NCBI GenBank assembly: GCA_022560375.1
Contig: JADFTK010000005.1
Location: 1-44,248, forward strand
Reading direction: 5' to 3'
Length of the DNA: 44,248 bases
Origin: Patescibacteria group bacterium
Lineage (GTDB): Bacteria > Patescibacteriota > Patescibacteriia > UBA10025 > JAHIVO01
This document shows positions 3,148 through 44,248 of the stretch, in pieces. Under the pieces are notes generated by a model. That model did not search any database. It was not told the DNA's origin and saw only the letters and a list, made by a program, of their open reading frames with translations. The position numbers and the translations under genes were made by a program. Each line of letters opens with the position of its first letter. Position 1 is the first letter of the stretch.

Positions 3148-4796
3148 TGAATTTCAAACTAAATTTACAGAAAAAAATTGAACGAGCTATAGTTGGGATT
3201 TGGCCCAGGCTTCGAGAGAATCCGGTAGTAGTAGATATTAATCACCCGCCGGAAGATAAGTTTGGCGATTACTCAAGTAATATTGCCATGCAGCTAACTT
3301 CAATTGCCCAACAAAGTCCCCTGGCCATTGCCGAGGCTATCAAAGATAAACTTGGTAAAGTCCCGGCCATTAATCGCATCGAGATTGTGCCTCCTGGTTT
3401 TTTGAATTTTTACCTAGATGATAAATGGTTAGCTCGACAAATGGGTATTATTCAAAAGGAAAAAAATAAATTTGGACAGAGTAATATTGGCGGTGGGCGG
3501 CGGGTGCTGCTAGAGTATGTATCAGCCAATCCTACTGGCCCAGTGACTATGGCCAATGGCCGCGGTGCTTTCGCTGGCGATACCTTAGCTAACATCATGA
3601 AGTTGTCTGGGTATACGGTACTGCGTGAGTATTATATGAATGATATTGGTAATCAGGTTAATATCCTGGCTGAATCAGTTCTACGACGATATTGGATCAA
3701 TCAGGGGATAAAAATGGAATATCCAGATTATTGTTATCAGGGAGAGTATATTAATGACTTAGCCAAACGAATTAATCTGCCTAACTATAAGCTTAATAAT
3801 ATTGAGAAGATTGAGGTTGTCCGTGATAAGATAAAGTCCCGTATTTTACAAAAGATGATTAGCGATATCAAGAAGGTGCTAGAGAAAAAATTAATAGTCC
3901 ACTATGATCGGTGGTATTCAGAAAAGATGCTGTATACATCAGGACAGGTCGATCAAGTTCTGCGATTGCTGAAAGGACGTGGCTTGTTATATAAATTTGA
4001 GGGAGCTATATGGCTCAAGATGAAAAAATTTGGTGATAGTCAGGATCACGTACTGATTAAGGCCAATGAGGATCCGACATATTTTTTGTCCGAAGTTGCC
4101 TATCTCTGGAATAAGTTTGTCAAACGAAAGATTAATAAGTATATACTTTTTGTCGGGGCTGATCACCATGGCCATGCCGCACGTATTCAACGTGTGCACA
4201 GGATGTTGGAATTTTCAGGTACGACGGTGGTTATATTGATGCAGATGGTTCGATTGATGAGGCGAGGCCAGGAGGTAAAAATGTCGAAACGATCAGGTAT
4301 TTTTATTACCTTAGAAGAATTAGCTGATGAGGTAGGATTGGATGCAACTCGATTTTTTTTCCTGATGCATGATTTCAATACCCATATGGATTTCGATATG
4401 GATTTGGCCAGAAAAAAATCAAAGGACAATCCGGTATTCTATGTTCAGTATGCCCACGCTCGTATCTGTAGTATAATGGAGAAGGCCAAGACCCTTGCCG
4501 CTACGCCAGTGCCGAGAGGAGCTAACCTAGAATTGGCCAAGGCTGAAAAAAGACTAATCAAACAGCTTATTAGGTGGCCGGAGCTAGTAGCTGAGGTGGC
4601 ACAAAATTATCAAGTGCATAGAATTCCTTTCTTTGCCATTGAAGTTGCTACTATTTTTCACGAATTTTATACCCAGTGCCAGGTCATTCAAGGCAAGCAA
4701 TACAATGGCCGAAGAATGCAGCTAGTAAATACTACCCGAATAGTTTTACAAAATATATTGAGTAGTATGGGAATTAACGCCCCAGCCAAGATGTAA
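3147..4796 (+). CDS. argS: Arginyl-tRNA synthetase
   Basis: VSANPTGPVTMANGRGAFAGDTLANIMKLSGYTV...YILFVGADHHGHAARIQ...KMSKRSG. Confidence 0.96.
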   Translation: MNFKLNLQKKIERAIVGIWPRLRENPVVVDINHPPEDKFGDYSSNIAMQLTSIAQQSPLAIAEAIKDKLGKVPAINRIEIVPPGFLNFYLDDKWLARQMGIIQKEKNKFGQSNIGGGRRVLLEYVSANPTGPVTMANGRGAFAGDTLANIMKLSGYTVLREYYMNDIGNQVNILAESVLRRYWINQGIKMEYPDYCYQGEYINDLAKRINLPNYKLNNIEKIEVVRDKIKSRILQKMISDIKKVLEKKLIVHYDRWYSEKMLYTSGQVDQVLRLLKGRGLLYKFEGAIWLKMKKFGDSQDHVLIKANEDPTYFLSEVAYLWNKFVKRKINKYILFVGADHHGHAARIQRVHRMLEFSGTTVVILMQMVRLMRRGQEVKMSKRSGIFITLEELADEVGLDATRFFFLMHDFNTHMDFDMDLARKKSKDNPVFYVQYAHARICSIMEKAKTLAATPVPRGANLELAKAEKRLIKQLIRWPELVAEVAQNYQVHRIPFFAIEVATIFHEFYTQCQVIQGKQYNGRRMQLVNTTRIVLQNILSSMGINAPAKM

Positions 4797-4806
4797 AATA
4801 TGAATT

Positions 4807-5940
4807 ATGCGTATTGGAATAGACTGTAGAACAATTCTAAATCCGAAACTCGGTGAACGCGCTGGCGTTGGTCACTATACTTTTAATTTGGTTAAAAATT
4901 TGCTGAAGTTGGATAAAGTAAATGAATATATTCTCTATTTCGACCATCGCGTACATAGCACCAAGGATTTTGAGCAAAAGAACGTTAAAATAAAAAATCT
5001 GCCCTTTTCACAATATAATAAGTTTATGCCATTTGCATATTCTCATATGCTTATTTCCGCGTATCTTTTGAAACACGGGTTGGACATTTTTCATTCTCCA
5101 ATATCATCACTGCCGCTGACCTATCCAAAAAAGTCTCTGATCACAGTTCATGACTTGGCCATCTACAAAAATCCATCTTGGTTTCCCACCCAAATATTCA
5201 GCACAAAATTATTAGTGCCTAGAAGCCTGAATGCTGCGGATAAAATTATTGCCGTGTCCGAGAGTACCAAAAAAGATATTAGAGAAATCTTTAATATACC
5301 ACCAAAAAAAATAAAGGTGGTGTATGAGGCGCCTAATGTAACGAAAGTAAAGGTTAGGAACAAAAAAATTGATAGCCTGCATAAATTTAAATTACCTTCT
5401 AAGTTTGTATTTTTTCTAGGCACCATCGAGCCCAGAAAAAATCTGGTTGGCTTACTGGAGGCGTTTAGAAAAGTTATAGATCGGAATATGTCATTACGGT
5501 CGTATCAATTGATTATTGCCGGGGCCAAAGGTTATAAGAATGAAAATGTTTTTAGTAGGATTAAAGAATTGAAACTTAGCAAATACGTAAAGTATCTAGG
5601 CTACGTTACCCATAATCAAAAAATTGAGCTACTTAAAAAAGCCACTTGTTTTGCTTTTCCCACCAGTTATGAAGGTTTTGGTTTGCCGGTGCTAGAGGCT
5701 ATGGCCCTGGGTACGCCTGTTATCACAAGCAACGTCTCGTCACTGCCGGAGATTACAAAAAATTCAGCTGTACTAGTGGATCCTGAAAGTACCACTGAGC
5801 TGGCGGCTGCTTTGCAAAAAATAATGACCAATCAGCAACATCGTATAACTCTTAGTAAGAAAGGTTTAAAAAGGGCTAAGGATTTTTCCTGGGAAAAGTG
5901 TGCTAGGGAAACGCTAAAAGTTTATAAGAGCATGGGTTAG
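4807..5940 (+). CDS. Glycosyltransferase family 4 (GT-B) protein
   Basis: FFLGTIEPRKNLVGLLEAF...FAFPTSYEGFGLPVLEAMALGTPVITSNVSSLPEI. Confidence 0.92.
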   Translation: MRIGIDCRTILNPKLGERAGVGHYTFNLVKNLLKLDKVNEYILYFDHRVHSTKDFEQKNVKIKNLPFSQYNKFMPFAYSHMLISAYLLKHGLDIFHSPISSLPLTYPKKSLITVHDLAIYKNPSWFPTQIFSTKLLVPRSLNAADKIIAVSESTKKDIREIFNIPPKKIKVVYEAPNVTKVKVRNKKIDSLHKFKLPSKFVFFLGTIEPRKNLVGLLEAFRKVIDRNMSLRSYQLIIAGAKGYKNENVFSRIKELKLSKYVKYLGYVTHNQKIELLKKATCFAFPTSYEGFGLPVLEAMALGTPVITSNVSSLPEITKNSAVLVDPESTTELAAALQKIMTNQQHRITLSKKGLKRAKDFSWEKCARETLKVYKSMG

Positions 5941-6341: not shown

Positions 6342-9302
6342 ATGCCACAAGACGAAAAAAGAGAAAGTAAGTCCAGCTTCCCTAAGGCCGAAGAGGAGAT
6401 ATTGGCTTTTTGGGAAAAGGAAGATATTTTTAAAAAAAGTTTGGCCAATACCAAGAATGGTAAGTCGTTTGTATTTTTTGAAGGACCGCCAACCGCTAAT
6501 GGCCAGCCGGGCCTCCACCACGTATTAGCCCGAGCCTATAAGGATGTTATCCTGCGCTATAAAACCATGCGGGGGTTTTTTGTTGAGCGCAAAGCTGGCT
6601 GGGATACTCATGGACTGCCAGTCGAGCTACAAGTAGAAAAAGAATTAAAAATTTCCGGCAAACCGGAGATAGAAAAGTATGGCATAGATAGATTCAATAA
6701 AAAGTCCAAAGAGAGTGTGTGGAAATACAAAGAAGATTGGGAGCGCCTGACTAGGCGGATGGCTTTTTGGATTGATCTGGAGCACCCCTACATTACTTAT
6801 GAAAATAATTACATAGAATCACTCTGGTGGATAATCAAGCAAATTTGGGACAAAAAATTGTTATATAGAGGTTACAAGGTTGTCCCTCAATGCCCTAGAT
6901 GCGGTACCGCCCTATCATCTCACGAGGTGGCCCTGGGCTACAAACTAGTAAAAGAAAATTCAGTATATGTAAAATTTAAAGTTCTGGGACAGGAGGACAC
7001 TTATATTCTCTCCTGGACCACTACTCCATGGACTCTACCTGGCAACGTCGCCCTAGCGGTCGGAGAAAAAATTGAATATATAAAAGTAGAAATTAACAAG
7101 GAAAAATATATTTTAGCAGCAGATAAGGTTAAACTTGTCTTACCCCCGGGTAAATTATTAATACCAGGAAAACCAATTGAAGCAAGTATTAATATTCTTG
7201 GACGATTCAAGGGTAGTGATCTTGTTGGTATGGAATATGAGCCGCTATTTGATATTAAGCCCCTGCAGTCTGACAAATCATTCAAAGTATATGCGGCTGA
7301 TTTTGTAAATACGGACGAGGGCACCGGGGTTGTCCATACCGCAGTCATGTATGGTGAAGATGATTTTGAGCTGGGTGTCCGAGTAGGACTTCCTCAGCAT
7401 CATACCGTAGATGAGAATGGAAAATTTACCGATGACGTGCCGCAATGGACAGGTAAATTCGTCAAGAGTAAAAAAGTGGAGGCGAGCATTATCGACGATA
7501 TCAAGCAGAGGGGTCTGCTGTATAGAGAGGAATTATATGAGCATGATTATCCTTTCTGTTGGCGGTGTGAAACACCATTATTGTACTATGCTAAATATTC
7601 CTGGTTTATAAAAATGACCAGCCTCAAGGATAAGCTGATAAAAAATAATGAATCAATAAATTGGGTTCCCCAGCATATCAAGCAAGGTCGTTTCGGGGAA
7701 TGGTTAAATGAGTTAAAAGATTGGGCATTTTCTAGAGAGAGATACTGGGGAACCCCCTTGCCGATTTGGGAGTCAGCCCAGGGCGATAGAATATGTATTG
7801 GCTCAATTGAAGAATTAAAATCATTGGCTAAGGATCCAGCGCAGATCGGTAAGGATTTTGATCTGCACCGACCGTTTGTTGATGATATTGTATTGGTCAA
7901 AGACGGGCAAGATTATAAAAGAGTTCGCGAGGTTATAGATGTTTGGTTCGATTCAGGAGCCATGCCCTTTGCCCAGTGGCATTATCCGTTTGAGAATAAA
8001 GAAAGAATAGATGAGGCTAAAAGTTATCCGGCTGATTATATTGTTGAGGCGGTGGATCAGACACGGGGTTGGTTTTATACTTTATTAGCCGTAGCCACTC
8101 TTTTAGATAAAGAGGCGCCTTATAAGAATGTAATATGCCTGGGCTTGATACTTGATAGTCGGGGCCAAAAAATGTCCAAATCAAAAGGTAATGTGGTAGA
8201 TCCCTTTGCCATGATGGATAAATATGGAGCTGATGCTTTACGCTGGCACTTCTTCATAATGAACCAGCCAGGCGAAACGAAGTTGTTTGATGAAAAGAAT
8301 CTGGAGGAGGTAGTAAAAAAGAATTGGTTGATTCTCTCGAATGTTTTATCTTTTTGGAAAATGTTTAGCAGTGATACGGCCACTCTCGATGCCAGCCAAC
8401 GGCCTAAATCCACTAATATCCTAGATAAGTGGGTGGTGGCCCAGCTTCATGTATTAATTAAAAACGTAACGGCACACCTGGATGGATATGCCATTACCGA
8501 AGCTGGCCGGGCCATTAGTGATTATATTAATGAAATTTCTACTTGGTATTTGCGCCGTTCACGAACACGATTTAAACGGGGAGGCAAGGAAAGAGATGAA
8601 GCTCTCCAGGCTCTACATTATGTATTAGTTAATCTAGCTAAATTATTAGCACCGTTCGCCCCATTTTTTGCGGAGAGATTATATAAAGAATTAGGCGGTG
8701 ATAAAGTTGAGGCCATTAGTGTTCATTTAACTAAATGGCCAGTTGATGATGAAGGACAGTCACAGCAGGATCTGGTTGATAAGATGAAAATAGTTCGTCA
8801 GGTGGTGGAGATGGGCCATGCTCTGAGAAAAGAGCAGGAGATCAAGGTGCGACAGCCACTGGCACAATTTATAGTCGTCAAGGTTGCTCTGGAGCCGGAA
8901 TTTATGGAAATTGTGAAAGACGAGATGAATGTTAGTGAGGCGATTTTAGCGAAACAAGTACCTAGTGGTAAAGAATTTATATCCAAAAAACAAGGGGACG
9001 TCTCGGTATCGCTGGACACTACCATAACAGATGAATTGAGATACCAGGGAATAGCCAGAGAGATGGTGAGGCACATTAATGCCATGCGCAAAGATGCTAA
9101 ATTAACTATCAATGACATGGTTACCTTATATTATGAAATTACCGATCAGGAGCTAGAAGCCGTATTTATCCAAAATAAAGATAATATCCGTCAGGAGGTT
9201 TTGGCTACCAAGTGTTTAAAGGGATTACCTGATAATGTGGAATTAAAAAAGGTGTTGCTAATTTCTGGAAGCAAAGTACTTTTTGGGATAAAAAAACAAT
9301 AA
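6342..9302 (+). CDS. ileS: Isoleucyl-tRNA synthetase
   Basis: FFEGPPTANGQPGLHHVLARAYKDVILRYKTMRGFFVERKAGWDTHGLPVE...KMSKSKGNVVDP. Confidence 0.97.
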   Translation: MPQDEKRESKSSFPKAEEEILAFWEKEDIFKKSLANTKNGKSFVFFEGPPTANGQPGLHHVLARAYKDVILRYKTMRGFFVERKAGWDTHGLPVELQVEKELKISGKPEIEKYGIDRFNKKSKESVWKYKEDWERLTRRMAFWIDLEHPYITYENNYIESLWWIIKQIWDKKLLYRGYKVVPQCPRCGTALSSHEVALGYKLVKENSVYVKFKVLGQEDTYILSWTTTPWTLPGNVALAVGEKIEYIKVEINKEKYILAADKVKLVLPPGKLLIPGKPIEASINILGRFKGSDLVGMEYEPLFDIKPLQSDKSFKVYAADFVNTDEGTGVVHTAVMYGEDDFELGVRVGLPQHHTVDENGKFTDDVPQWTGKFVKSKKVEASIIDDIKQRGLLYREELYEHDYPFCWRCETPLLYYAKYSWFIKMTSLKDKLIKNNESINWVPQHIKQGRFGEWLNELKDWAFSRERYWGTPLPIWESAQGDRICIGSIEELKSLAKDPAQIGKDFDLHRPFVDDIVLVKDGQDYKRVREVIDVWFDSGAMPFAQWHYPFENKERIDEAKSYPADYIVEAVDQTRGWFYTLLAVATLLDKEAPYKNVICLGLILDSRGQKMSKSKGNVVDPFAMMDKYGADALRWHFFIMNQPGETKLFDEKNLEEVVKKNWLILSNVLSFWKMFSSDTATLDASQRPKSTNILDKWVVAQLHVLIKNVTAHLDGYAITEAGRAISDYINEISTWYLRRSRTRFKRGGKERDEALQALHYVLVNLAKLLAPFAPFFAERLYKELGGDKVEAISVHLTKWPVDDEGQSQQDLVDKMKIVRQVVEMGHALRKEQEIKVRQPLAQFIVVKVALEPEFMEIVKDEMNVSEAILAKQVPSGKEFISKKQGDVSVSLDTTITDELRYQGIAREMVRHINAMRKDAKLTINDMVTLYYEITDQELEAVFIQNKDNIRQEVLATKCLKGLPDNVELKKVLLISGSKVLFGIKKQ

Positions 9303-15386: not shown

Positions 15387-15450
15387 CGTTATCATGATTC
15401 TTTACTAAAGGGTAAAAAAATGCTAAAATGAATATAATTAGCTTGTCTTT

Positions 15451-15843
15451 ATGTCTAATAATATTTTCCTAGCTACAATAAAGTATATCTTGGTTGAAAT
15501 TCTGTGGGACATAATTTACTTCCCCATTTGGTGGTATACCAAGGGGTTGGTTAAGGTGGCTCGATATTGTCTTGATAGCGCTCAGTTTCATTTACAGCGC
15601 CGCATCGGACTTAGCATCTGGCTGAAGAGCATGTTTAAGCCAATGTTTGGTGACTATACTAAAGAGGGTCGGATCATTAGCTTCTTTATGCGTATTTTTG
15701 TTTTGATTTGGAAGCTGGCTTCATCATTAGTTTGGCTAATAATTTTATTAATCCTTTTTATAGTCTGGCTGCTTTTGCCGCTGCTCGTAGTTTATTTTAT
15801 TCTGTACCAGACATTTAATATTCCATTTTTTTCTTATTCTTGA
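15451..15843 (+). CDS. Small membrane protein in an operon with the ClpC-like ATPase
   Basis: 130 aa, hydrophobic N-terminal segment and a long C-terminal one (LASSLVWLIILLILFIVWLLLPLLVVYFILY); ends 3 nt before the next start. Confidence 0.75.
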   Translation: MSNNIFLATIKYILVEILWDIIYFPIWWYTKGLVKVARYCLDSAQFHLQRRIGLSIWLKSMFKPMFGDYTKEGRIISFFMRIFVLIWKLASSLVWLIILLILFIVWLLLPLLVVYFILYQTFNIPFFSYS

Positions 15844-15846
15844 TCT

Positions 15847-18612
15847 ATGGCGGAACCAAAAGGCAAGAAATTTCTTTTCCTAGAGTGCCCTGTGTGTCAG
15901 GGGACTGGTCATGAAGGTGATCGGGAATGTTCTCGTTGTGGAGAGCGAGGTATGTTTGCTTGGCTGGATAATGAAATTTTGCAGTGGTCAAAAAAAATAG
16001 ACACCCTTCATATATTTGAGGAAGCACTGGAGAGAACAGTCAATGCTATGATAAATGGTTTCCTGATTTTTTTCGGGGTAGTAGGTTTACTCTCTCTGGT
16101 AGTGACTATAGTGGTCATGGTGCAGGAGCAGGCAAATATTTTAGAATTTTGGAAACTCCAGAATGGGTTAATGGGCATTTTTGCCATTAGTCTTCTGACT
16201 GATTTATACGCCTATTATAGGCTACAACGACAATCCCTCAACGAGCGCACTGTAAAGAAGAAAAGCTTTGAAACTTTTTTGACCGAAGAGGATGCTCGAG
16301 TATTATTTGATCAGGCCACGCAGCTGGATAATAAAAAAATAATAGAGGTATCAGATGCCTATACTGCCACCGCCCTTAGGGTAGTGGAAGGCGGATGGCA
16401 AATGGCCAAGCGTTTGAAGCACAACAGTGCTACTCCTTTGCATATACTAGCTACCTTGCTAGGCTACCCAGATACTCAGGTGGTACTGGCACGGCTGGGT
16501 TTGGACGGTAAGATATTGGTGGAGAAAATATCCCGAAGTCTGCAAAAGATACCAAGGGCAACTGGAGCAGAGGTTAGTATATCGACGGACTATAAAAGGG
16601 TGTTGATTCAAGCCTATGCTGAAGCCTATAATAGTCGGCGAGAACAGGTAGATGTGCCCCAGCTACTGATGGCAGTTGTGAAGATTGATGATACCTCTCG
16701 AGACATTTTGTATGATATGGAGATAGAGCAGGAAGAGGTGGTCAATGTGGTTGAATGGCTAAATATCCAACATCGCTTTTCACAGCAGTGGCGAAAATGG
16801 AGAAGCAAAGCGGTCTATAAGTCTAAAGGCGTAATGAATAAATCAATGACCGCACAAGCCACTCCACTGCTGGATCGTTTTGCTAATGATTTAACTCAAT
16901 TAGCCCAGCGTGGCATTTTGTCCCCGACTATTGGGCGTGATAAAGAGATCGAAGAAACGTTAAGAATTATTGAAGGTGGTAAAAATGTAATCCTATCAGG
17001 AAATCCAGGCGTGGGTAAAACCAGTATAGTTGAAGGCATCGCTGAATTGATGGCTTCTGAAGAGGTGCCGGAAGTACTCCAGGATAAAAGGTTTGTGAGC
17101 CTCTCCATTGCTTCACTAGTCGGCGCCGCCGGGCGGCAAGGCGAGCTGGAGGGGATATTACTGGAAATTATTAACGAGGTTGCCAGATCGGGTAATATAT
17201 TGTTATTTATTGATAATATTCAAAACATGGTGGGAGTTTCCACGCAGGGATCCCAAAATTTAGATATTGCTGAGATGTTTGCCAGTGCCCTGCAGAAGGG
17301 ACTGTTTTACTGCATCGCCACGACCACCCCCCAAGACTATCGCCGCTATATAGAGCCCAGCAGCGCCCTAACCTCGGTATTCCAAAAAGTATCCGTGGAG
17401 GAGCCGGATATCAATGGGGCCATTTTGGTTCTCGAGGGCAAGGCCAGTTCCATCGAAGCTAAAAATGATATATATTTTTCCTATGAGGCCATAGAGAGAA
17501 CCGTAAAATTGTCTGAGAGATATATACAGGATAGATATTTACCCGAAAAAGCTATTTCTTTATTACAGGAGATTGCAGTATATGTCCGCAAGAAAAGAGG
17601 CAAGGGAGCCATAGTTCGTGGAGAGGATGTCGCGGAAATTATATCTACCCGCACTAACGTACCTATTACAAAAATTACCGAAAAAGAGTCGGCCAAGTTA
17701 CTAAACCTGGAGGAGCACATCCATGAACGGATGATTGATCAGGCAGAGGCGGTATCCGCTGTAGCCACAGCTCTTCGTCGAGCCCGGGCTGAATTGAGGG
17801 ATGTCAGCAGGCCGATAGTAAATTTATTATTTCTGGGGCCAACTGGTGTAGGTAAAACTGAATTGGCGAAGACAGTAGCGGAAGTATATTTTGGATCAGA
17901 AGAAAATATGATCAGGCTTGATATGTCCGAGTACCAAGAACGCTCTTCTATTAATCGGTTGATTGGCGCTCCGCCAGGTATGGCTGGTGGAACCAAGGGT
18001 GGCTTTTTAACGGAAGCGGTCCGCTCGAAACCATTTTCCCTGGTACTCCTGGATGAAATTGAAAAAGCCCATCCTGATATCCTGAACATATTTTTGCAGG
18101 TAATGGATGATGGCCGATTAACTGATACGCAGGGGAGGACTATTAATTTTTCAAATGTAATATTGATAGCCACCTCCAATGCCGGTACCTCGATGATCCA
18201 GGATCGCATGAAGGCTAATATTGGCATTGATCAAATTAAAGAGGAACTTATTAATGAGGGGTTGAAAGCTTTTTTCCGACCAGAATTTTTGAATCGTTTT
18301 GATAATATTGTGGTATTCAAGCCATTAGCCTATGAAGAAATTTTGCAAATAGTAGATCTCATGCTCAATAAAGTAGCGGAGCGTTTATCGGCCAAAGGGA
18401 TCAGTCTGGAAGTTACGCCGGAAGCTAAAGAAGAACTAGCCAAGGATGGATATGATCCGGTGTTTGGTGCTAGACCGCTCAGGCGGGCTATTCAGAATAC
18501 GGTGGACAATGCCTTGGCCACATATTTATTACAGGGGAAGCTGAGCCGGCGTGATGTGGCTGTATTGGAGCCGGGCGGCAAGATTACGGTAAAGCGAGCA
18601 GAGGCAATATAA
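15847..18612 (+). CDS. Membrane-anchored ClpC/ClpB-type AAA+ ATPase with N-terminal zinc knuckle
   Basis: CPVCQGTGHEGDRECSRCGERG, two TM segments, Clp_N-like region, D1 Walker A GNPGVGKTS, D2 Walker A GPTGVGKTE, D2 Walker B LVLLDEIEKAHPD, ClpB_D2-small-like C-terminus. Confidence 0.9.
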   Translation: MAEPKGKKFLFLECPVCQGTGHEGDRECSRCGERGMFAWLDNEILQWSKKIDTLHIFEEALERTVNAMINGFLIFFGVVGLLSLVVTIVVMVQEQANILEFWKLQNGLMGIFAISLLTDLYAYYRLQRQSLNERTVKKKSFETFLTEEDARVLFDQATQLDNKKIIEVSDAYTATALRVVEGGWQMAKRLKHNSATPLHILATLLGYPDTQVVLARLGLDGKILVEKISRSLQKIPRATGAEVSISTDYKRVLIQAYAEAYNSRREQVDVPQLLMAVVKIDDTSRDILYDMEIEQEEVVNVVEWLNIQHRFSQQWRKWRSKAVYKSKGVMNKSMTAQATPLLDRFANDLTQLAQRGILSPTIGRDKEIEETLRIIEGGKNVILSGNPGVGKTSIVEGIAELMASEEVPEVLQDKRFVSLSIASLVGAAGRQGELEGILLEIINEVARSGNILLFIDNIQNMVGVSTQGSQNLDIAEMFASALQKGLFYCIATTTPQDYRRYIEPSSALTSVFQKVSVEEPDINGAILVLEGKASSIEAKNDIYFSYEAIERTVKLSERYIQDRYLPEKAISLLQEIAVYVRKKRGKGAIVRGEDVAEIISTRTNVPITKITEKESAKLLNLEEHIHERMIDQAEAVSAVATALRRARAELRDVSRPIVNLLFLGPTGVGKTELAKTVAEVYFGSEENMIRLDMSEYQERSSINRLIGAPPGMAGGTKGGFLTEAVRSKPFSLVLLDEIEKAHPDILNIFLQVMDDGRLTDTQGRTINFSNVILIATSNAGTSMIQDRMKANIGIDQIKEELINEGLKAFFRPEFLNRFDNIVVFKPLAYEEILQIVDLMLNKVAERLSAKGISLEVTPEAKEELAKDGYDPVFGARPLRRAIQNTVDNALATYLLQGKLSRRDVAVLEPGGKITVKRAEAI

Positions 18613-35951: not shown

Positions 35952-36394
35952 TGTCCGACAAGTTTAAATTTGAGATTACTACACCAGAACGCACAGTATA
36001 TTCTGATACTGTTGATGAGGTTATATTACCGACCTTGAGCGGAGAGATTGGCATATTGCCAAATCATATCCCGCTGGTTTCAGTAATAAAGCCTGGTGAG
36101 ATTCGCATCAAAAAAGGCTCTGAAGAAAGTAGCTTAGCTGTCTCAGGTGGATTTATTGAAGTGCAGCCAAATAAAGTGATTGTTTTAGCTGATACGGCGG
36201 AGCGAGCGGAAGAAATTGATGAAGCAAGAGCTGAAGAAGCGCGACAGAGGGCAGAGAAATTATCAAAAGAGAAAGGTGTAGATGCACGCGAGTTTGCTGC
36301 CATATCAGCCAAGATTGAGAAAGAACTAAGCCGTTTAAAAGTCGTGAGGCGCAGAAGAAAAAATAGACCAATATCACCAATAAAACCAACATAA
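35951..36394 (+). CDS. atpC: F-type ATP synthase subunit epsilon
   Basis: FEITTPERTVYSDTVDEVILPTLSGEIGILPNHIPLVSVIKPGEIRIKKG. Confidence 0.93.
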
Positions 36395-36411
36395 AAAGTG
36401 AAAGGGATTAT

Positions 36412-36846
36412 ATGACGCATAAATGCCAGGCGCTGGTATTGCACTGTATGGACTACAGGTTCATTGGACACCTTAGAGATTTTATTGTATCTCAGGGATT
36501 AAAGGATCAATACGACGAGGTCAGCGTGGCCGGGGGAGTGCAAGGAATAGTTAGCGGCACCAAACATGTTCAGGAATATATCTTGAATCAAATTGGCACC
36601 GCCCGCCGTCTGCACAGTATTCAAGATGTATATCTCATTAACCATTTAGACTGCGGGGCCTATGGAGGACGAACCGCGTTCGGTAGCGACCAGGAGGAGC
36701 ATGATCGCCACACCTCAGATTTACAGAAAGCACAGATTATCATCAACCAACGCTTTTCTGAACTAAATATCAGTATGGTTATCGCACGGTTGAATGAAGA
36801 AAATGGAGGCCAGGAGGTAGATTTCGAAGTAGTAAGCGGTTCATAA
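36412..36846 (+). CDS. Beta-carbonic-anhydrase-like protein (short)
   Basis: HCMDYRF (CxDxR) and NHLDCGAYGG (HxxC), the zinc/active-site motifs of beta-carbonic anhydrases; 144 aa. Confidence 0.7.
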   Translation: MTHKCQALVLHCMDYRFIGHLRDFIVSQGLKDQYDEVSVAGGVQGIVSGTKHVQEYILNQIGTARRLHSIQDVYLINHLDCGAYGGRTAFGSDQEEHDRHTSDLQKAQIIINQRFSELNISMVIARLNEENGGQEVDFEVVSGS

Positions 36847-36864
36847 CTGCTGTAAAAAATTTAA

Positions 36865-36896
36865 AAAGGTCAGTCGAAGGAAACTGGTCTTTTTTT
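36865..36896 (+). terminator. Rho-independent terminator
   Basis: AAGGTCAGT-...-AACTGGTCTT stem with TTTTTTT. Confidence 0.65.
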
Positions 36897-36957
36897 ATTG
36901 ATTAAGAATAACAATAGTGCTAGAGTTTATTAATTAGTATTTATTTTTTTTGAATTT

Positions 36958-37593
36958 ATGGAATGTTGTGCCAACTATGATCGTGTTTTTGATCAAAAGC
37001 AAGCAAAAAAGGATTTAAAAAGATATCGCAAAAGGGGTCTGCGAAAATCCTCACAGCAGATTGTTGACTATCTAGGGGATAAAATCGGTGGCATGACTGT
37101 CTTAGAGATCGGCAGTGGAGTAGGCTATCTGGGTATGGAGTTAGTAAAAAAAGGTGCTAAGTCCGCTCTGGAAATTGATATTTCTTATGCCTATCTCGAA
37201 AGAGCTAAGGTTCTGCGTCACGAATTAAATTTGGATGATGCGGTAGAGTTTAGGACCATGGACTTTATACAACACTATGGTAATTTATCGGATCATGATA
37301 TAGTGGTGTCTGATAAAGTTATTTGCTGCTTGCCCAATTTTAAGGAATTTATAGAGGCAGGAACGGCTCGGGCCAAGCACTATTACGCCATAGTTTATCC
37401 TAGAGATCTAAGACTTTGGAAAATGTTTGGCGTAGTGCTGAATTGGTCAGCTCAGTTTTTAAAAAAATATAAAGGGTTTAATTTTTTTATTCATCCTCAC
37501 AAGGATATTCACGAATTAATTACCCAAAAAGGATTTGAAAAAGTATTAGATAGAAAGGGGGTTTGGCAAATATCAATATATGAAAAGAAGTAG
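36958..37593 (+). CDS. SAM-dependent methyltransferase
   Basis: MTVLEIGSGVGYLGMELVKKGAKSALEIDIS (class I SAM motif I and post I). Confidence 0.85.
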   Translation: MECCANYDRVFDQKQAKKDLKRYRKRGLRKSSQQIVDYLGDKIGGMTVLEIGSGVGYLGMELVKKGAKSALEIDISYAYLERAKVLRHELNLDDAVEFRTMDFIQHYGNLSDHDIVVSDKVICCLPNFKEFIEAGTARAKHYYAIVYPRDLRLWKMFGVVLNWSAQFLKKYKGFNFFIHPHKDIHELITQKGFEKVLDRKGVWQISIYEKK

Positions 37594-37624
37594 GTATGGC
37601 ACTTTTTAAAAAATTGGAGGAGAC

Positions 37625-37789
37625 ATGGCGGAAGGAAAAGCAATTTGTCCATGTTGTAATGGCAACATTGATATAGTTAACGGTAAATTGATCGGTCACG
37701 ACCGTACGGAAACAGGGTACTGCGAAGGCAGCAACAAAACACCTGATGAATTGAGAGCTTCAAATTGTTCTGATGCCAAGAACAAGTAA
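37625..37789 (+). CDS. 54-aa Cys-rich small protein (possible zinc ribbon), not in the ORF track
   Basis: MAEGKAICPCCNGNIDIVNGKLIGHDRTETGYCEGSNKTPDELRASNCSDAKNK; GGAGGAG Shine-Dalgarno 4-5 nt before ATG; own terminator. Confidence 0.75.
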   Translation: MAEGKAICPCCNGNIDIVNGKLIGHDRTETGYCEGSNKTPDELRASNCSDAKNK

Positions 37790-37812
37790 GTGATATTTGT
37801 TTCTACCTATTA

Positions 37813-37842
37813 AAGTCTGTTTTAAAAAAACAGGCTTTTTTT
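37813..37842 (+). terminator. Rho-independent terminator after the 54-aa protein
   Basis: AGTCTGTTTT-AAAAACAGGCT-TTTTTT. Confidence 0.7.
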
Positions 37843-37844
37843 AA

Positions 37845-37872
37845 TTGACAATATATCCAGTGGCGCTATACT
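37845..37872 (+). promoter_or_regulatory. Near-consensus promoter of the dtxR-like gene
   Basis: TTGACA (37845-37850), 16-bp spacer, TATACT (37867-37872). Confidence 0.75.
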
Positions 37873-37881
37873 AAAAAATAA

Positions 37882-37897
37882 GTTCGTATACACGAAC
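37882..37897. promoter_or_regulatory. Candidate operator palindrome
   Basis: GTTCGT-ATAC-ACGAAC, 6-bp arms, just downstream of the -10 and 4 nt before the regulator ATG. Confidence 0.55.
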
Positions 37898-37901
37898 AAT
37901 T

Positions 37902-38333
37902 ATGAAAGATAAACGAATCACCCCAACAATAGAAGACTATTTAAGAGCTATCTATTACTTAGGCAAAAAGCGCGATGGTGGTGTTGGTGTTGTTACCCTG
38001 GCCAAGTATATGCGACTCGCCAAATCTACAGTTTCCGAAAGACTTAAAAATTTAGACAATCATAAACTTATTAACTACAAAAAGTATTCTTCAATAATAT
38101 TTACTAACAAAGGATATACGCTCGCCAGCCAGCTAACTTATAAACATCGACTAATTGAGGTATTTTTGCACGAGGCACTAAAGATGAGCAAAAACAATGT
38201 GCATAGAGAAGCCCACAAGCTCGAACACGCCTTTAGTGATGAGGTGATTACCAGATTAAGTAAATTTCTTGGCTACCCCAAAAAAGATCCTCATGGAAAA
38301 CCAATAACGCATAAGCATGAAATCACGGACTAA
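37902..38333 (+). CDS. DtxR/MntR-family metal-dependent transcriptional regulator
   Basis: TPTIEDYLRAIYYLGKKRDGGVGVVTLAKYMRLAKSTVSERLKNLDNHKLINYKKY...REAHKLEHAFSDEVITRLSKFLGYPKKDPHGKPI. Confidence 0.9.
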   Translation: MKDKRITPTIEDYLRAIYYLGKKRDGGVGVVTLAKYMRLAKSTVSERLKNLDNHKLINYKKYSSIIFTNKGYTLASQLTYKHRLIEVFLHEALKMSKNNVHREAHKLEHAFSDEVITRLSKFLGYPKKDPHGKPITHKHEITD

Positions 38334-39414
38334 ACTTTCCCTTATATTTACGCTGTTTTTACTTCTATTTAGTATGGTCTTAATTGTTTTTACTCCTTTG
38401 GGGCGCCTAGTATTCAGGGGTGATGACAGTGAGTACAATAGTGACAAAGTATTACAGGCTAGTGAAGATAAGGCTATTGACTATAAAAAACTTCAACAAA
38501 TTTCCCAAGAGAAGATGGGTATGATTGGTGAGGTTGCTACTGATGATTTCGACCCAACTGAATTCTTAACTACCTGGAATTTTAATAATCTCCCACCGGA
38601 AGAACGGGAAAAATTTTATAAAGAATCACGACTCCCAGATGGTAGACTGCTGAGAGAATATTGGTTCATTGCTGAAGATAAAGAAATTGAGATTGCTCCG
38701 GGTATATTTTTTCCCGCCTGGACTTATAATGGACAGGTTCCAGCTCCAACGATCCGAGCAACTGAAGGTGATCGGATTAGGATACACTTTGTGAATAGTG
38801 GAACTAAGCCTCATACCATGCACTTCCACGGCTTCCACACTGAAGAAATGGATGGCGCCGTGCAAGATCAGTTCGTTTATCCAGGGGAAACATTTACCTA
38901 TGAATTTGATGCCGATCCATTTGGCGTCCATCTTTTTCATTGTCATTCTGTACCGGTAAGTCAGCACATCAGCAAAGGGCTTTACGGAGCCTACATTGTT
39001 GATCCCAAAGAAGATACTAGGCCCCAGGCTGATCAAGAGCTTATTATGGTTATGAATGGATTTGATACTAATTTTGATGAAGAAAATGAGATATATGCCG
39101 TGAACACGGTGGCCTTTCACTACGCAAAACATCCTATTCAAGTAAAAGCCGGTGAATTGGTACGGATTTACCTTATCAATATACTTGAATTTGATCAGAT
39201 CAATTCTTTTCATGTCCACGCTAATTTCTTCGATGAATATAGAACTGGGACATCTCTGGAACCAGACACTTTCACTGATACAGTTATCATGGGACAAGGA
39301 GAGCGATCTATTATAGATATACGATTTAAATTTCCAGGGAAATACATGTTCCATGCCCACAAAACCGAATTTGCAGAAAAAGGATGGATGGGCTTTTTTG
39401 AAGTCATAGAATAA
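38317..39414 (+). CDS. Two-domain multicopper oxidase, membrane anchored
   Basis: N-terminal TM; four HxH motifs (MHFHGFH, LFHCHSVPVSQH, FHVHANFF, MFHAHKTEF) and PAPTIRATEGDRIRIHFVNSG; Cys only in the first-domain HCH motif. Confidence 0.9.
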   Translation: MKSRTKLSLIFTLFLLLFSMVLIVFTPLGRLVFRGDDSEYNSDKVLQASEDKAIDYKKLQQISQEKMGMIGEVATDDFDPTEFLTTWNFNNLPPEEREKFYKESRLPDGRLLREYWFIAEDKEIEIAPGIFFPAWTYNGQVPAPTIRATEGDRIRIHFVNSGTKPHTMHFHGFHTEEMDGAVQDQFVYPGETFTYEFDADPFGVHLFHCHSVPVSQHISKGLYGAYIVDPKEDTRPQADQELIMVMNGFDTNFDEENEIYAVNTVAFHYAKHPIQVKAGELVRIYLINILEFDQINSFHVHANFFDEYRTGTSLEPDTFTDTVIMGQGERSIIDIRFKFPGKYMFHAHKTEFAEKGWMGFFEVIE

Positions 39415-39418
39415 TAAA

Positions 39419-40618
39419 ATGCCAGAACAAACAAAATATCACAAGATTCGATTTTGGATAAGCGCCTTGCTCCCCCTTGTTTTCTTGGCAGCGCTATTTT
39501 ATATTTTTCTTAACTTTGGTCCACTAGGAGTTTTTAAAACAGCGTTACCCCCCATTGAAGAAGCATTTATACAAAGAATAATTTTAGAGCCTGAGCAAAT
39601 ATCCGTTAACATTATAAATGACGGACCAGAACCAGTAACCATTGCGCAGGTTTTAATTAATGATATTTATTGGCAATTCTCCATGACTCCCTCCCAGACC
39701 CTCGCCCCTCTCAAGCGAGGAGTTATTAAGCTGCAATATCCTTGGCTGGAAGGCGATCCCATACGCATAACCTTGATTTCAAGAAACGGCGTTACCTTTG
39801 AAGGAGAAGTGGGTGTGGCAGTAGAAACGCCACAATTTAATATCCTCTACTCTAGAACCTTTGTCCTATTGGGCATATATGTTGGCGTTATTCCCGTGCT
39901 CTTGGGGCTCTTGTGGCTCCCTTTTCTTCGAAAGTTACGAGCAGAGTGGTATTCGTTTTTACTTTCATTTACCATTGGCATTTTGGTGTTTTTAGGAATT
40001 GATACTTTGGCCGAATCATTTGAGCTGGTAAAGAATCTCCCCCAGGCATTCAATGGCATCGGCATCTTAGTTATTGGTTTTCTATTTTCCGTCTTGACCC
40101 TTTCGGCCATAAGCTACAAGACAGAACATCACCGAGCCCGCAGCGACCATCATCAGGCCCTAGCCTGGGGATACTTAATCGCGCTTGGAATTGGCTTACA
40201 TAATCTTGGAGAAGGATTGGCCATAGGAAGCGCCTATGCCATCGGAGAAATAGCACTGGGGGGCAGTTTAGTAATTGGGTTTATGCTGCACAACACCACT
40301 GAAGGAGTGGCTATTATTGCCCCGCTGACAAAAACATTCAAACAGTTTAAGACCTACCTTTTACATCTCATTCTTATGGGTCTTATTGCTGGTGTCCCGA
40401 CAATTATTGGCACCTTAATTGGAGGTTTTGCTTTTTCTTTTGCGCTGGCCGTGCTATTTTTGGCTATCGGGGCCGGTGCAATATTCAATGTGGCATTTGA
40501 TATAACAAAAAGCATGGCCAAAGGCTCGTGGCTTTCAATATTTACAGTAACTAATGTTCTTGGTTTCTTCGCCGGACTTTTAATAATGTATGTTACTGGT
40601 TTTTTGGTTCTAGGCTAA
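39419..40618 (+). CDS. ZIP family metal transporter with N-terminal beta-domain extension
   Basis: HNLGEGLAIGSAYAIGEIALGGSLVIGFMLHNTTEGVAIIAPL (ZIP TM IV/V metal-site motifs HNxxEG and HNxxEG). Confidence 0.9.
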   Translation: MPEQTKYHKIRFWISALLPLVFLAALFYIFLNFGPLGVFKTALPPIEEAFIQRIILEPEQISVNIINDGPEPVTIAQVLINDIYWQFSMTPSQTLAPLKRGVIKLQYPWLEGDPIRITLISRNGVTFEGEVGVAVETPQFNILYSRTFVLLGIYVGVIPVLLGLLWLPFLRKLRAEWYSFLLSFTIGILVFLGIDTLAESFELVKNLPQAFNGIGILVIGFLFSVLTLSAISYKTEHHRARSDHHQALAWGYLIALGIGLHNLGEGLAIGSAYAIGEIALGGSLVIGFMLHNTTEGVAIIAPLTKTFKQFKTYLLHLILMGLIAGVPTIIGTLIGGFAFSFALAVLFLAIGAGAIFNVAFDITKSMAKGSWLSIFTVTNVLGFFAGLLIMYVTGFLVLG

Positions 40619-40677
40619 GCCCTTTCTAAAAATAATAATATTTCCCTCATAATTTTTTAACTTTTTACTTTGTTAAC

Positions 40678-40752
40678 GGACAAGTTTTTTATTTGTTCTC
40701 GTATTTTTGTAACTTCTTGGGATTTTTTTGGAGGGGACAAGTTTTTTATTTG
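40678..40752. repeat. Two exact 18-bp direct repeats, period 57 bp
   Basis: ggacaagttttttatttg at 40678-40695 and 40735-40752. Confidence 0.85.
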
Positions 40753-40828
40753 ACGATTTTTTTTCATTGAGTTAGCATAGGCTGTTGTCCTTTTTATTTC
40801 TTTAGTTTGTTGATTGGAGGTAGTGTAA

Positions 40829-41281
40829 TTGCATTCGTCGTTGTCTATACTAGTAGCTGCTGAGGATTTACCTGAAGGAGCGGAGCTGAACAAAACATTG
40901 GTTGTGGTGGGCGAACTTCGCCTATATCGTCATAGTTCAGGCTGTTATTCAACTATGATCGGCCTTGGCCCGAACGGTGAATTATACGAAACTTTAGTGA
41001 AGGCGCTCGAAGAAATTGATTTAAAATATCAGGTTAGCATAGATGCCATGTTGCCACTCGAAGGTTCATCCGCTAACATCGCTGAAGGAGAATATCTTGA
41101 AGACAGGATAGAGGTGCAAGTCTGGAAACTTGATCCACGAAAATACACGGACATGCTAGTAAATGCTAAAGAGCCGGTGCTTAGTATCAAGTTGATCAGT
41201 GATGACATCAATTCCGCCATTGTCTTCTATCGTTTATTACTTGAGGGACGAAAGAAACCCCTATCAAGTGATAGTCAGTAG
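40829..41281 (+). CDS. Hypothetical protein, TTG start
   Basis: GGAGG 8 nt before TTG; 150 aa; followed by a terminator; no recognised family. Confidence 0.7.
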   Translation: MHSSLSILVAAEDLPEGAELNKTLVVVGELRLYRHSSGCYSTMIGLGPNGELYETLVKALEEIDLKYQVSIDAMLPLEGSSANIAEGEYLEDRIEVQVWKLDPRKYTDMLVNAKEPVLSIKLISDDINSAIVFYRLLLEGRKKPLSSDSQ

Positions 41282-41285
41282 TTAG

Positions 41286-41321
41286 GGCGCATTCCAAAAA
41301 TAGGAATGCGTCTTTTTTTAT
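41286..41321 (+). terminator. Rho-independent terminator
   Basis: GCGCATTCC-aaaaata-GGAATGCGTC-TTTTTTT. Confidence 0.85.
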
Positions 41322-41467
41322 AGCTAGTATAATGTATTGAGACATCATTTTTTTATAGGTATTGACTTTAAGTCGTAGATGGTGTACCATATGTTTAATA
41401 AAAATTTGTTAAAATAGAAAAGTACCTAATCATGGTGCATATCGTTCATTCAAATCTAGGAGGTTAA

Positions 41468-41629
41468 ATGGGTAAAAAAGGAGAATCATCTTGTTCGGAA
41501 GATAAAGGTAATAATGCAGATAATTCTCGACAAGAGGATTACTGCTCTAAATGCGGGAGTCATCATGGAGGGGTACATAAACCGCCCCATACCTGTAATG
41601 GTAAAGTCATCGGCCTCAGGAGAAAGTAG
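41468..41629 (+). CDS. 53-aa Cys/His-rich small protein, not in the ORF track
   Basis: MGKKGESSCSEDKGNNADNSRQEDYCSKCGSHHGGVHKPPHTCNGKVIGLRRK; AGGAGG Shine-Dalgarno 4 nt before ATG; own terminator. Confidence 0.75.
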   Translation: MGKKGESSCSEDKGNNADNSRQEDYCSKCGSHHGGVHKPPHTCNGKVIGLRRK

Positions 41630-41645
41630 AGGCGCCAAGTATTGA

Positions 41646-41682
41646 CCTGTCGAATACATTTATCGACAGGTCGTTTTATTTT
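41646..41682 (+). terminator. Rho-independent terminator after the 53-aa protein
   Basis: ACCTGTCGA-atacattta-TCGACAGGT then T-rich tract. Confidence 0.85.
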
Positions 41683-41744
41683 TGCTAACAACTTTTATTA
41701 CCATGGCTATGTAAAATACTATAAAGGTATGATATAAATCAGTT

Positions 41745-41798
41745 ATGGAAGATATTAGATTAATAAAAAAATATTTAGAGGTTAACGAAGCGCGCTAA
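41745..41798 (+). CDS. Possible 17-aa leader peptide ending in a terminator-like hairpin
   Basis: MEDIRLIKKYLEVNEAR*; stop overlaps CGCGCT-AAGAA-AGCGTG-TTTTTTT; no Shine-Dalgarno. Confidence 0.3.
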   Translation: MEDIRLIKKYLEVNEAR

Positions 41799-41886
41799 GA
41801 AAGCGTGTTTTTTTGGTATTTAACATATCCAATGGAAGGAGGGTATCGCCGACGATAATCAACGTTTTCACCAATCAGATCTTCAG

Positions 41887-42336
41887 GTGGCACTTAATGG
41901 TTCCAGTATCACGATCAACGGCACGGTTTATTATCAGCATCCGCGCGGACGCAAAAAAACGGATTATTGCTATGGCAATCAATACTTTGAGACCGAGGAG
42001 GAGGTCTTGATTGCAGAAATGCTGGGTAATATGAATATATCTTTCATACACCACGTGAATTTCATCTTCAATCTCAGAGAGGGTGATCAACATTCAGTTA
42101 TCTGGTGTCCGGACTTCGTCTTTGCCAAGCCATGGCGTTGGGTAGGGGATATATGTAATGGTTCGGTAATTATGGGCCTAGAAGTAAAACGCTCATGTAT
42201 ACGAGGCAAGCCTCGCAGCCGATCTAAAAGTTTGCTGCGTGAATTAGGCATTCCTATATTGCTGGTAGCCCGATCACATGTCGAGCCATATTACATTAAT
42301 TCCTGTAGGCTCCCGCTGAAGCCCCTGAAATCTTAA
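41887..42336 (+). CDS. Small PD-(D/E)XK nuclease-like protein, GTG start
   Basis: EEEVLIAEML...VIWCPDFVFAKP...VIMGLEVKRS...LLRELGIPILLVA matches the E / PD / ExK pattern. Confidence 0.6.
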   Translation: MALNGSSITINGTVYYQHPRGRKKTDYCYGNQYFETEEEVLIAEMLGNMNISFIHHVNFIFNLREGDQHSVIWCPDFVFAKPWRWVGDICNGSVIMGLEVKRSCIRGKPRSRSKSLLRELGIPILLVARSHVEPYYINSCRLPLKPLKS

Positions 42337-42490
42337 AAGTCTGTCGTTTCACCAAATGGCGGACTTTTTTATAATAATGGTAAATGAAAACATTGACTAT
42401 TGATAACAGTTGTTGATAACTTTTATATTGTATATTTAAAATAGCTAATGTTAGCCTTTTTTTATCAACTAAGGTTAATTAATTTTATTT

Positions 42491-42519
42491 GCATAGGGGG
42501 GTATTTTTTAGTATACTAT
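42491..42519 (+). promoter_or_regulatory. Promoter of the repetitive secreted protein
   Basis: TTGCAT, 17-bp spacer (aggggggtattttttag), TATACT. Confidence 0.6.
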
Positions 42520-42610
42520 AATACAAGAAAGGAGAACCTTAAATTTAATTTATCAATTTTTTAGCTTAAGATTATTTTAAAATATTAAGAAAGATAAGAA
42601 AGAAAATATT

Positions 42611-44248
42611 ATGCACAGAATTACATACGTAAGTTTATTCATTGGCGCTGTGGTATTGATTTTTGCTCCAGCAGCTCAGGCGGCAGTCGTCACAGCAGAT
42701 AGTTTACACGTCCAAGGCGTGTCTTTTTTGACTGGACCTATTGTCAATCCTATGGGTGCAGTCACAATTGCTGATAATCTCGATGTTCACGGCGCTATTT
42801 TTCGAAAATTTGGCGCAGTAAAGATTGGTGATGATCTCGATGTTCACGGCGCTATTTTTCGCAGTTTCGGACCGGTGAAAATTGGTGACGGTATTTTGCA
42901 ATTGGGCGGAGAGCAAGTAACCTTTAGCGGGAATGTTAATGCTAATAAAGGACTTGATGTAATAGGGACATTAAATGTAAGCGGAGCTACAATGTTATCC
43001 TCACTCGGCACTGGTCTGCTCCATGCAGATGCCAATGGCCTATTATCGTCTAGCGGAATCTTAGGTTCTGATTTTGCTGCTGGAGCAATAGGTTTGAACA
43101 AGTTAGCTAGTGGCACCTCAGGACAACTTATAGTTGGAAACGCTTCTGGCGTACCAACCTACGTTTCAGCTTCAGGTGATGTGCTAATCAGTAATCTCGG
43201 TGTCAACACTATCCAACCTAATTCGGTAGCCCTCACAACAGACACGACTGGAAACTATGTGGCATCACTTGCTAACGGTACTGGCATCACTGGTGGTGCT
43301 GCAGGATCTGAGGGGGGAACACTCACCATCGGAGTAGATGAAGCTAACGCCTTTACCTGGACTTCCTTACATATCTTTTCATCGGTAGACATTAACGGCG
43401 GCGCAATCGATGGCACAACTATCGGATCTGCGTCAGCCTCTACTGGTGCCTTTACTACCCTAAACTCTTCTAGTCTCTTTACAGGTACTCTTGGTGCAAC
43501 TCTCAGTGGTGCAGTTGTTAGTCTCAATAACGATTCTAACTTCGCAGTTAACATCAATACTGGTACTTCAAATGCCGCCCTAGCACTTGGTGGTGGTATG
43601 GGTACTGTGGCCATTAACTCTTCTGACTGGGATATTGATGTTACTGGAGCATTTACTGATGGTGCTGTAGACAGTTCGCCTGTTGGAGCATCCACAGCCT
43701 CCACCGGTGCCTTCACTACCCTAAGCGCTTCTAGTCTCTTTACAGGTACTCTAGGTGCTACCATTAGTGGAGCAGCTATTAGTTTGAATAACGCTTCTAA
43801 CTCTGCAGTCAATATTAATACCGGTACTTCCACTGGAACTCTGACTCTAGGTGGTGGTAGTGGCTCAGTGATTATTAACTCCGATGACTGGGACATCACG
43901 GCTCTTGGTGTAATCACCGGTGTCGCCTTTAATGCCAATGACACTGGCAACACCCTGACCAATGTGGATAATGCAGATCTCACTGCAGATACAATCGACT
44001 TTGACAGTATCGCGAATTCTGCCACTATTGACGAGGCCACATCGTTTACTGGTGCAGCTGGAAATACATTGACCATTGCCAGAACACTGACGAACAACAC
44101 ATCTGAGAATGCCCTCCTCGTGACCACGACAGCGTCTGATACTAGTGGTACGACAACGGCCCAATACGGACTCTATCTGGACAACGTTTCTACTGGTACT
44201 CAAGCAGCTGATGCACTTTTGGTCCTGGATAACTCCGATGGAGCTATT
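42611..44248 (+). CDS. Repetitive secreted surface protein, 5' part only (open at window end), not in the ORF track
   Basis: Continuous frame from ATG: MHRITYVSLFIGAVVLIFAPAAQAAVVTADSLHVQGVSFLTG...; signal peptide, G/T/S/N-rich beta repeats, no stop seen before the window end. Confidence 0.88.
   Translation, partial: MHRITYVSLFIGAVVLIFAPAAQAAVVTADSLHVQGVSFLTGPIVNPMGAVTIADNLDVHGAIFRKFGAVKIGDDLDVHGAIFRSFGPVKIGDGILQLGGEQVTFSGNVNANKGLDVIGTLNVSGATMLSSLGTGLLHADANGLLSSSGILGSDFAAGAIGLNKLASGTSGQLIVGNASGVPTYVSASGDVLISNLGVNTIQPNSVALTTDTTGNYVASLANGTGITGGAAGSEGGTLTIGVDEANAFTWTSLHIFSSVDINGGAIDGTTIGSASASTGAFTTLNSSSLFTGTLGATLSGAVVSLNNDSNFAVNINTGTSNAALALGGGMGTVAINSSDWDIDVTGAFTDGAVDSSPVGASTASTGAFTTLSASSLFTGTLGATISGAAISLNNASNSAVNINTGTSTGTLTLGGGSGSVIINSDDWDITALGVITGVAFNANDTGNTLTNVDNADLTADTIDFDSIANSATIDEATSFTGAAGNTLTIARTLTNNTSENALLVTTTASDTSGTTTAQYGLYLDNVSTGTQAADALLVLDNSDGAI
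42722..42894 (+). repeat. Short in-frame repeat, 57 bp / 19 aa
   Basis: DNLDVHGAIFRKFGAVKIG then DDLDVHGAIFRSFGPVKIG, preceded by a degenerate DSLHVQGVSFLTG unit. Confidence 0.85.
43424..43920 (+). repeat. Long in-frame repeat, 261 bp / 87 aa, two copies
   Basis: GSASASTGAFTTLNSSSLFTGTLGATLSGAVVSLNN... and GASTASTGAFTTLSASSLFTGTLGATISGAAISLNN..., both reaching INS(S/D)DWDI. Confidence 0.9.

Follow-up and report, generated by a model that had tools for sequence, protein, structure and literature searches.

A predicted self-regulated metal-acquisition cassette common to a patescibacterium and DPANN archaea

Organization of the cassette

The analyzed DNA (hereafter the window; 44,248 nt) is a 44-kb contig from the 1.1-Mb, 97% complete genome of a Patescibacteria group bacterium. 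Its gene content is chromosomal (rpL20, infC, smpB, argS, ileS, recO, tgt, metG, glyS and the genes of ATP synthase). The ATP synthase operon ends 1.5 kb upstream of three ORFs, which encode a DtxR-family regulator, a two-domain multicopper oxidase (MCO) and a ZIP-family transporter (Table 1). The coordinates and common strand of these genes, the 17-bp overlap of dtxR and MCO and the 4-nt gap between MCO and ZIP had been given in a first-pass annotation and all proved exact when the ORFs were rechecked.

Table 1. Features of the dtxR-MCO-ZIP cassette and of its upstream region (window positions).
Feature	Position	Strand	Remarks
Intrinsic-terminator-like hairpin and T run	37812..37838	+	12 pairs, tail TTTTAATTGA
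Predicted sigma-70 promoter, TTGACA-16-TATACT	37845..37872	+	11/12, best site of the region
Palindromic operator GTTCGTATACACGAAC, candidate DtxR box	37882..37897	+	Core GTTMGN6CKAAC also upstream in most related ultra-small-clade loci
dtxR, DtxR/MntR-family repressor, 143 aa	37902..38333	+	Pfam; HTH and dimerization/metal domain
Two-domain MCO, 365 aa	38317..39414	+	N-terminal membrane anchor; T1 copper in domain 1
MCO domain 1, HTMHFHGFH	38812..38838	+	T1 His166, trinuclear cluster (TNC) His169/171, extra invariant His174; invariant in 82/82
MCO domain 1, HCHSVPVSQHISKGL	38938..38982	+	TNC His208/210, T1 Cys209/His217, axial Leu222; His/Cys invariant, Leu in 68/82
MCO domain 2, HVH	39211..39219	+	TNC His299/301; 82/82
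MCO domain 2, HAH	39352..39360	+	TNC His346/348, no T1 Cys; 81/81
ZIP-family transporter, 399 aa	39419..40618	+	Extra N-terminal TM helix and beta-sandwich domain
Beta-sandwich fused to ZIP, aa 51-131	39569..39811	+	Probably extracytoplasmic
ZIP metal-site motifs HNLGEG (aa 261-266) and HNTTEG (aa 291-296)	40199..40306	+	Conserved in relatives

A terminator-like hairpin, a promoter, a palindrome and the dtxR ATG follow one another within ~90 bp, and this arrangement (terminator, sigma-70 promoter, operator, start codon) points to a self-contained transcription unit, which the hairpin would isolate from transcription arriving from upstream. An Rfam search over positions 36300-44248 gave zero matches and thus no RNA switch.

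Several minor features were found around the cassette. The gene placed directly after the ATP synthase operon (36412-36846) encodes a Pro_CA_2 protein (putative carbonic anhydrase). The cassette is flanked by two tiny ORFs for Cys-rich, zinc-ribbon-like proteins (37625-37789, 54 aa, and 41468-41629, 53 aa), for which no clear Pfam family was found, and an 18-mer, GGACAAGTTTTTTATTTG, occurs twice, ~58 bp apart, just 3' of the ZIP gene (40679-40760).

The regulator and its operator

Both the HTH and the metal/dimerization domain of the DtxR protein were recognized above the Pfam cut-offs (PF01325, 44.7 bits; PF02742, 94.2 bits), and NCBIfam supports the assignments of DtxR and of the MCO. The protein resembles DtxR/IdeR/MntR repressors in its domains, its metal-ligand positions and its palindromic box (with a TTAGG/CCTAA core in the DPANN members), but differs from them in being too short for an SH3 domain and in the GTTCG half-site subtype found in the window and in loci L002 and L019. 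Its ligand-type residues are D12, H82, E86, H101, H105, E108 and H109. With Asp at the position of MntR D8 and His at that of E99/C102 (which we take to be metal-ligand positions of MntR/DtxR), the set is a mixture of the MntR and DtxR types, and the identity of the metal cannot safely be read from it.

A palindromic operator at the promoter, as expected of a DtxR-family system, is present as a sequence footprint. It overlies the presumed transcription start. The 1.1-Mb genome contains a single copy of its form GTTCGTN4ACGAAC, and a genome search found dtxR of the cassette to be the only PF02742 gene, which together suggest a private, autoregulated circuit. Among the related loci the site is kept although the flanking sequence differs. 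The pattern GTTMGN6CKAAC gave 33 matches in 31.8 kb of upstream regions versus 1 in 856 kb elsewhere, a ratio that is not to be read as a probability, since the pattern was generalized after inspection of these loci, which share a common ancestry. TTAGGN4CCTAA gave 15 exact matches in the upstream regions, with 0.07 expected from its density elsewhere.

In most DPANN loci, AAGTTAGGNNNNCCTAACTT or a near-match lies upstream of dtxR, a few bases 5' of the ATG; its TTAGG/CCTAA core is that of the classical DtxR/IdeR box. The GTTCG-type operator was found in the window, L002 and L019, while L020 has a hybrid and L023 has GTTCTATATATAGAAC. The recognition helix of the window protein reads AKSTVSER. 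The three loci with the GTTCG half-site (window, L002, L019) share KSTVSER in this helix, and in the remaining DPANN loci KPSVSEM accompanies GTTAGG. The half-site thus tracks the recognition helix, so that regulator and site co-vary. The DPANN operator sits just 3' of an archaeal TATA-like box and that of the window after the sigma-70 -10 element, so that one operator is found within the promoter type of each domain.

The oxidase and the transporter

The MCO comprises two cupredoxin domains (PF07732 and PF07731, both above cut-off), which is also the result of the AlphaFold monomer model and of Foldseek. All T1 His/Cys ligands and the eight TNC His (four HxH motifs) are intact and are invariant across 81-82 aligned sequences; the T1 set (H166, C209 and H217) lies in domain 1, with none in domain 2. 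The model matches the two-domain MCO structures 3gdc (TM 0.95) and 7rab (TM 0.88) (Marinithermus hydrothermalis, dodecamer), which have the same fold and the same copper-ligand motifs.

The ZIP protein scored below the Pfam gathering cut-off (PF02535, E 3.6e-6, 26.9 versus 35.1 bits), and the same profile matches all 47 members of this ZIP family at E-values of up to 1 (best 1e-12). It was nevertheless accepted as a ZIP transporter, because the fold of its AlphaFold model (pLDDT 85; an extra N-terminal TM helix, a beta-sandwich and eight ZIP helices) matches BbZIP (TMt 0.65-0.71) and both HNxxEG motifs are intact. The beta-sandwich occurs throughout the MCO-linked ZIP family. No recurrent Pfam family was found for it among the 47 members, and its best structural likeness, to the archaellum proteins FlaG/FlaF, is weak. 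A metal-chaperone role was considered for this domain and rejected: its likeness to PCuAC/CopC is weak (E 0.04-0.06) and it has no conserved His, Cys or Met, for which reason docking is the preferred role.

Occurrence of the cassette

For comparison, 80 relatives were retrieved from genome contigs. A ZIP gene of the same type lies directly or nearly directly 3' of the MCO in 78 of them, representing many phyla, so the pairing is more than chance. A DtxR-family gene is present within the fetched stretch in 58/80, mostly adjoining the pair. The idea of a conserved metal-uptake unit, put forward from the window alone, is supported, and the metal oxidation suggested along with it is plausible. The position of the regulator varies: dtxR comes (i) first and on the same strand in DPANN archaea and in the CPR locus L019, (ii) divergently in Arthrobacter and in the CPR-type loci L017, L018 and L083, and (iii) downstream of ZIP in Nitrososphaerales and in some of the Chloroflexi. 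DPANN archaea and a small number of further CPR bacteria also have the complete dtxR-MCO-ZIP unit, to which NRAMP/MntH is often added as a fourth gene.

Within the host phylum the cassette is rare. Its MCO was detected in 2 of 380 genomes (one being the host), the host is the sole carrier among the 286 genomes of the class, and the cassette is found in 0/3 of the other genomes of the family. This distribution does not fit vertical inheritance within Patescibacteria, and the rarity of the cassette in the phylum indicates that it was probably acquired horizontally. In these three sister genomes atpD-atpC is retained and the cassette is absent (one of the contigs ends early); a Pro_CA_2-like gene lies near atpC in two of the three.

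Base composition is uninformative as a mark of transfer: the GC comparison proposed in the first-pass annotation gave 0.36-0.44 for the cassette and 0.37-0.45 for its surroundings. No relative was found in the viral contig collection (viral_contigs), and a virus as the carrier was rejected. The wider MCO family is present in 133 plasmid records, 74 of which are typed as conjugative, often together with ZIP. Since the best matches listed are distant (51-58% identity), these plasmids are not considered the direct source.

Metal specificity

In 14 loci of the ultra-small clade (13 archaeal ones and CPR L019), ZIP is directly followed by an NRAMP gene. DPGN is present in all 14 proteins and MPH in all those that are long enough, and the NRAMP proteins of L010 and L019 are called Mn(2+) MntH by NCBIfam. 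The DtxR-box-like operator and this NRAMP/MntH partner argue for metal-repressed acquisition of Mn(II)/Fe(II), which is favoured over copper uptake on these grounds. No NRAMP gene was found in the window genome, so the link to manganese comes from the relatives only; the genome also encodes an Fe/Mn superoxide dismutase and a second ZIP. As for plasmids, Nramp-dtxR is divergent from MCO-ZIP in one of Deinococcus, Nramp, dtxR, MCO and ZIP all lie within ~8 kb in one of Rubrobacter, and one of Microvirga combines MCO-ZIP with a Fur-family gene. Against the Mn/Fe reading it must be said that the homologous pair of ammonia-oxidizing archaea rises mildly under copper limitation (PMC7785015) and that some plasmid copies sit in copper-resistance islands; besides, the cargo of ZIP and NRAMP is divalent ions, which leaves the benefit of an oxidase to uptake unexplained.

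Copper acquisition, in which the oxidase converts Cu(I) to Cu(II) and ZIP imports the latter, is the model that the literature offers for MCO1-ZIP in Nitrososphaera viennensis (PMC7785015, PMC7819960). The window MCO has the T1 axial Leu of MCO1 of ammonia-oxidizing archaea (AOA). We consider this reading unlikely for the window, because the DtxR-box-like operator and the NRAMP/MntH operon partner point to Mn/Fe, and because the regulators adjoining the pair belong to the DtxR or Fur families, with no copper regulator directly adjacent in the four plasmids examined. In addition, the response of the AOA pair to copper limitation is mild (log2FC of 0.81 for MCO1 and 1.33 for the adjacent permease), and the patterns of MCO1 in N. 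maritimus are conflicting (PMC7785015).

Alternatively, the oxidase might remove toxic Fe(II), Mn(II) or Cu(I) outside the cell, with ZIP acting as an exporter or being unrelated cargo. MCOs such as CueO are detoxifiers, and the plasmid copies lie among genes for P-type ATPases, CDF exporters and copper proteins. This role is even less probable than copper acquisition, as an operator over the transcription start suits repression by metal and not induction, NRAMP and ZIP are importers, and MCO and ZIP are almost never separate in the relatives.

Phylogeny and probable transfer between domains

In the MCO tree, the window falls inside a 26-row clade (support 100/98) of Woesearchaeota, Nanoarchaeota, Micrarchaeota, CPR and one TA06-titled contig. 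The ZIP tree recovers the same set (100/99), while that of dtxR, a short gene, is weakly resolved. With MCO and ZIP concatenated, the window pairs with the nanoarchaeotal locus L003 (98/90) within a 21-row CPR/DPANN clade (100/100), outside of which Micrarchaeota are placed. The MCO-ZIP pairs of Nitrososphaerales occupy a separate part of the tree, together with Dadabacteria/Tectomicrobia. On these trees, the closest relatives of the cassette are DPANN archaea (Woesearchaeota and Nanoarchaeota) and other CPR, not AOA. The likeness to AOA oxidases stated in the first-pass annotation thus holds at the level of the broad family, which includes MCO1, but the trees speak against a specific link, and an origin in AOA was rejected. 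The cross-domain transfer considered plausible there from this likeness is itself indicated by the nesting of the window with DPANN archaea in a well-supported clade, and sharing of the cassette across the bacteria-archaea divide can be regarded as a well-supported reading.

The nesting tentatively suggests transfer from archaea to CPR. How many transfers into CPR would be counted depends on L011: monophyly of CPR was rejected by the AU test with this locus included (p = 7.6e-7) and not without it (p = 0.34). L011 is probably a misbinned archaeal contig; although titled 'Peribacteria', it encodes a TrmB regulator and is placed among Woesearchaeota by the MCO tree as well as by that of ZIP. In this locus a cupredoxin/COX2-like gene (6963-7337) lies between MCO and ZIP.

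The dependence on L011 could also mean that the apparent sharing between domains as a whole is a binning artefact. This is very improbable, given that the window is a 44-kb chromosomal piece, partly collinear with the sister genomes, and that each promoter is of the kind expected from the domain of its host (a TATA-like box in DPANN archaea, -35 and -10 elements in the window).

Predicted activity and comparison with known systems

The ligands and fold predict that the MCO should be an O2-reducing oxidase and not a nitrite reductase. That it is a copper nitrite reductase (NirK), an enzyme reported from Parcubacteria, has a next to negligible probability and was rejected: the best NCBIfam match is indeed TIGR02376, but at 103 bits against a cut-off of 296.3, the top structures are the oxidases 3gdc and 7rab, and all eight TNC His, of which two-copper NirK does not have the full set, are complete. 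The nirK reported in CPR groups with Brocadia and Rhodanobacter sequences (PMC5581439) and therefore seems to represent a different clade.

The best explanation for the locus, and one that we hold to be likely, is a horizontally acquired, self-regulated metal-acquisition cassette. When metal is sufficient, the small DtxR/MntR-type protein would bind Mn(II)/Fe(II) and then the operator over the transcription start, shutting off the whole cassette with its own gene included. DtxR-family proteins can also activate, which counts against reading the site as one of repression. Scarcity of metal would lead to production of the ZIP permease and of the copper oxidase, anchored at the cell surface, and to import of Mn(II)/Fe(II). 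As to the substrate class, we tentatively favour a ferroxidase-type metallo-oxidase beside the importer, as a possibility slightly short of an even chance; it might work on the outer face of the membrane, where O2 would be reduced to water, and may dock onto the beta-sandwich of ZIP. It could aid uptake by removing competing Fe(II), by freeing metal from organic ligands or by a Fet3-like hand-over. A bolder form of this explanation is conceivable but doubtful in its entirety: a mobile 'manganese kit' of ultra-small prokaryotes, composed of a DtxR-repressed oxidase, a ZIP with a docking domain and, in most cases, NRAMP, which was passed between DPANN and CPR with its operator rebuilt for the promoter of each domain, and whose oxidase oxidizes competing Fe(II) where cells are exposed to O2, leaving Mn(II) as the ion that the permeases import.

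The nearest known system is the MCO1-ZIP pair of AOA (Kerou 2016 as cited in Reyes 2020, PMC7785015), whose lineage MCO1 is described in that literature as limited to thaumarchaeal genomes. In both systems a two-domain MCO with a T1 axial Leu lies directly beside a ZIP permease (4 nt away in the window), and in the Nitrososphaerales loci L071, L074 and L077 the pair is followed by a DtxR gene. The window cassette differs in being placed on a branch separate from thaumarchaeal MCO1, in having dtxR as its first gene with a conserved operator, in the NRAMP gene added in its relatives, and in the metal assigned (Mn/Fe instead of Cu). The yeast ferroxidase-permease system Fet3-Ftr1 likewise pairs a copper oxidase with a permease; the resemblance is one of working principle, as the permease families differ and that of the window is a ZIP, a mover of divalent metals. 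A search of openly accessible papers gave no report of a DtxR-MCO-ZIP(-NRAMP) operon, of its operator or of such a unit in CPR/DPANN. Thus, MCO1-ZIP is known, and what is new is the regulated, NRAMP-extended form common to ultra-small cells of both domains.

These findings suggest that a ready-made kit for scavenging manganese/iron is traded between streamlined bacteria and archaea, and they provide a clean case in which regulator and operator have remained a matched pair within a promoter typical of the respective host. They open the copper-uptake reading of MCO1-ZIP, the current AOA model, to direct test in culturable relatives, and point to metal scavenging and to copper chemistry that uses O2 in cells commonly called fermentative and minimal. 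In another CPR bacterium (L096, G346 contig 12), genes for a VIT1-family transporter (4614-5351) and an Fe/Mn superoxide dismutase (15431-16057) were observed several kb from a divergent cassette.
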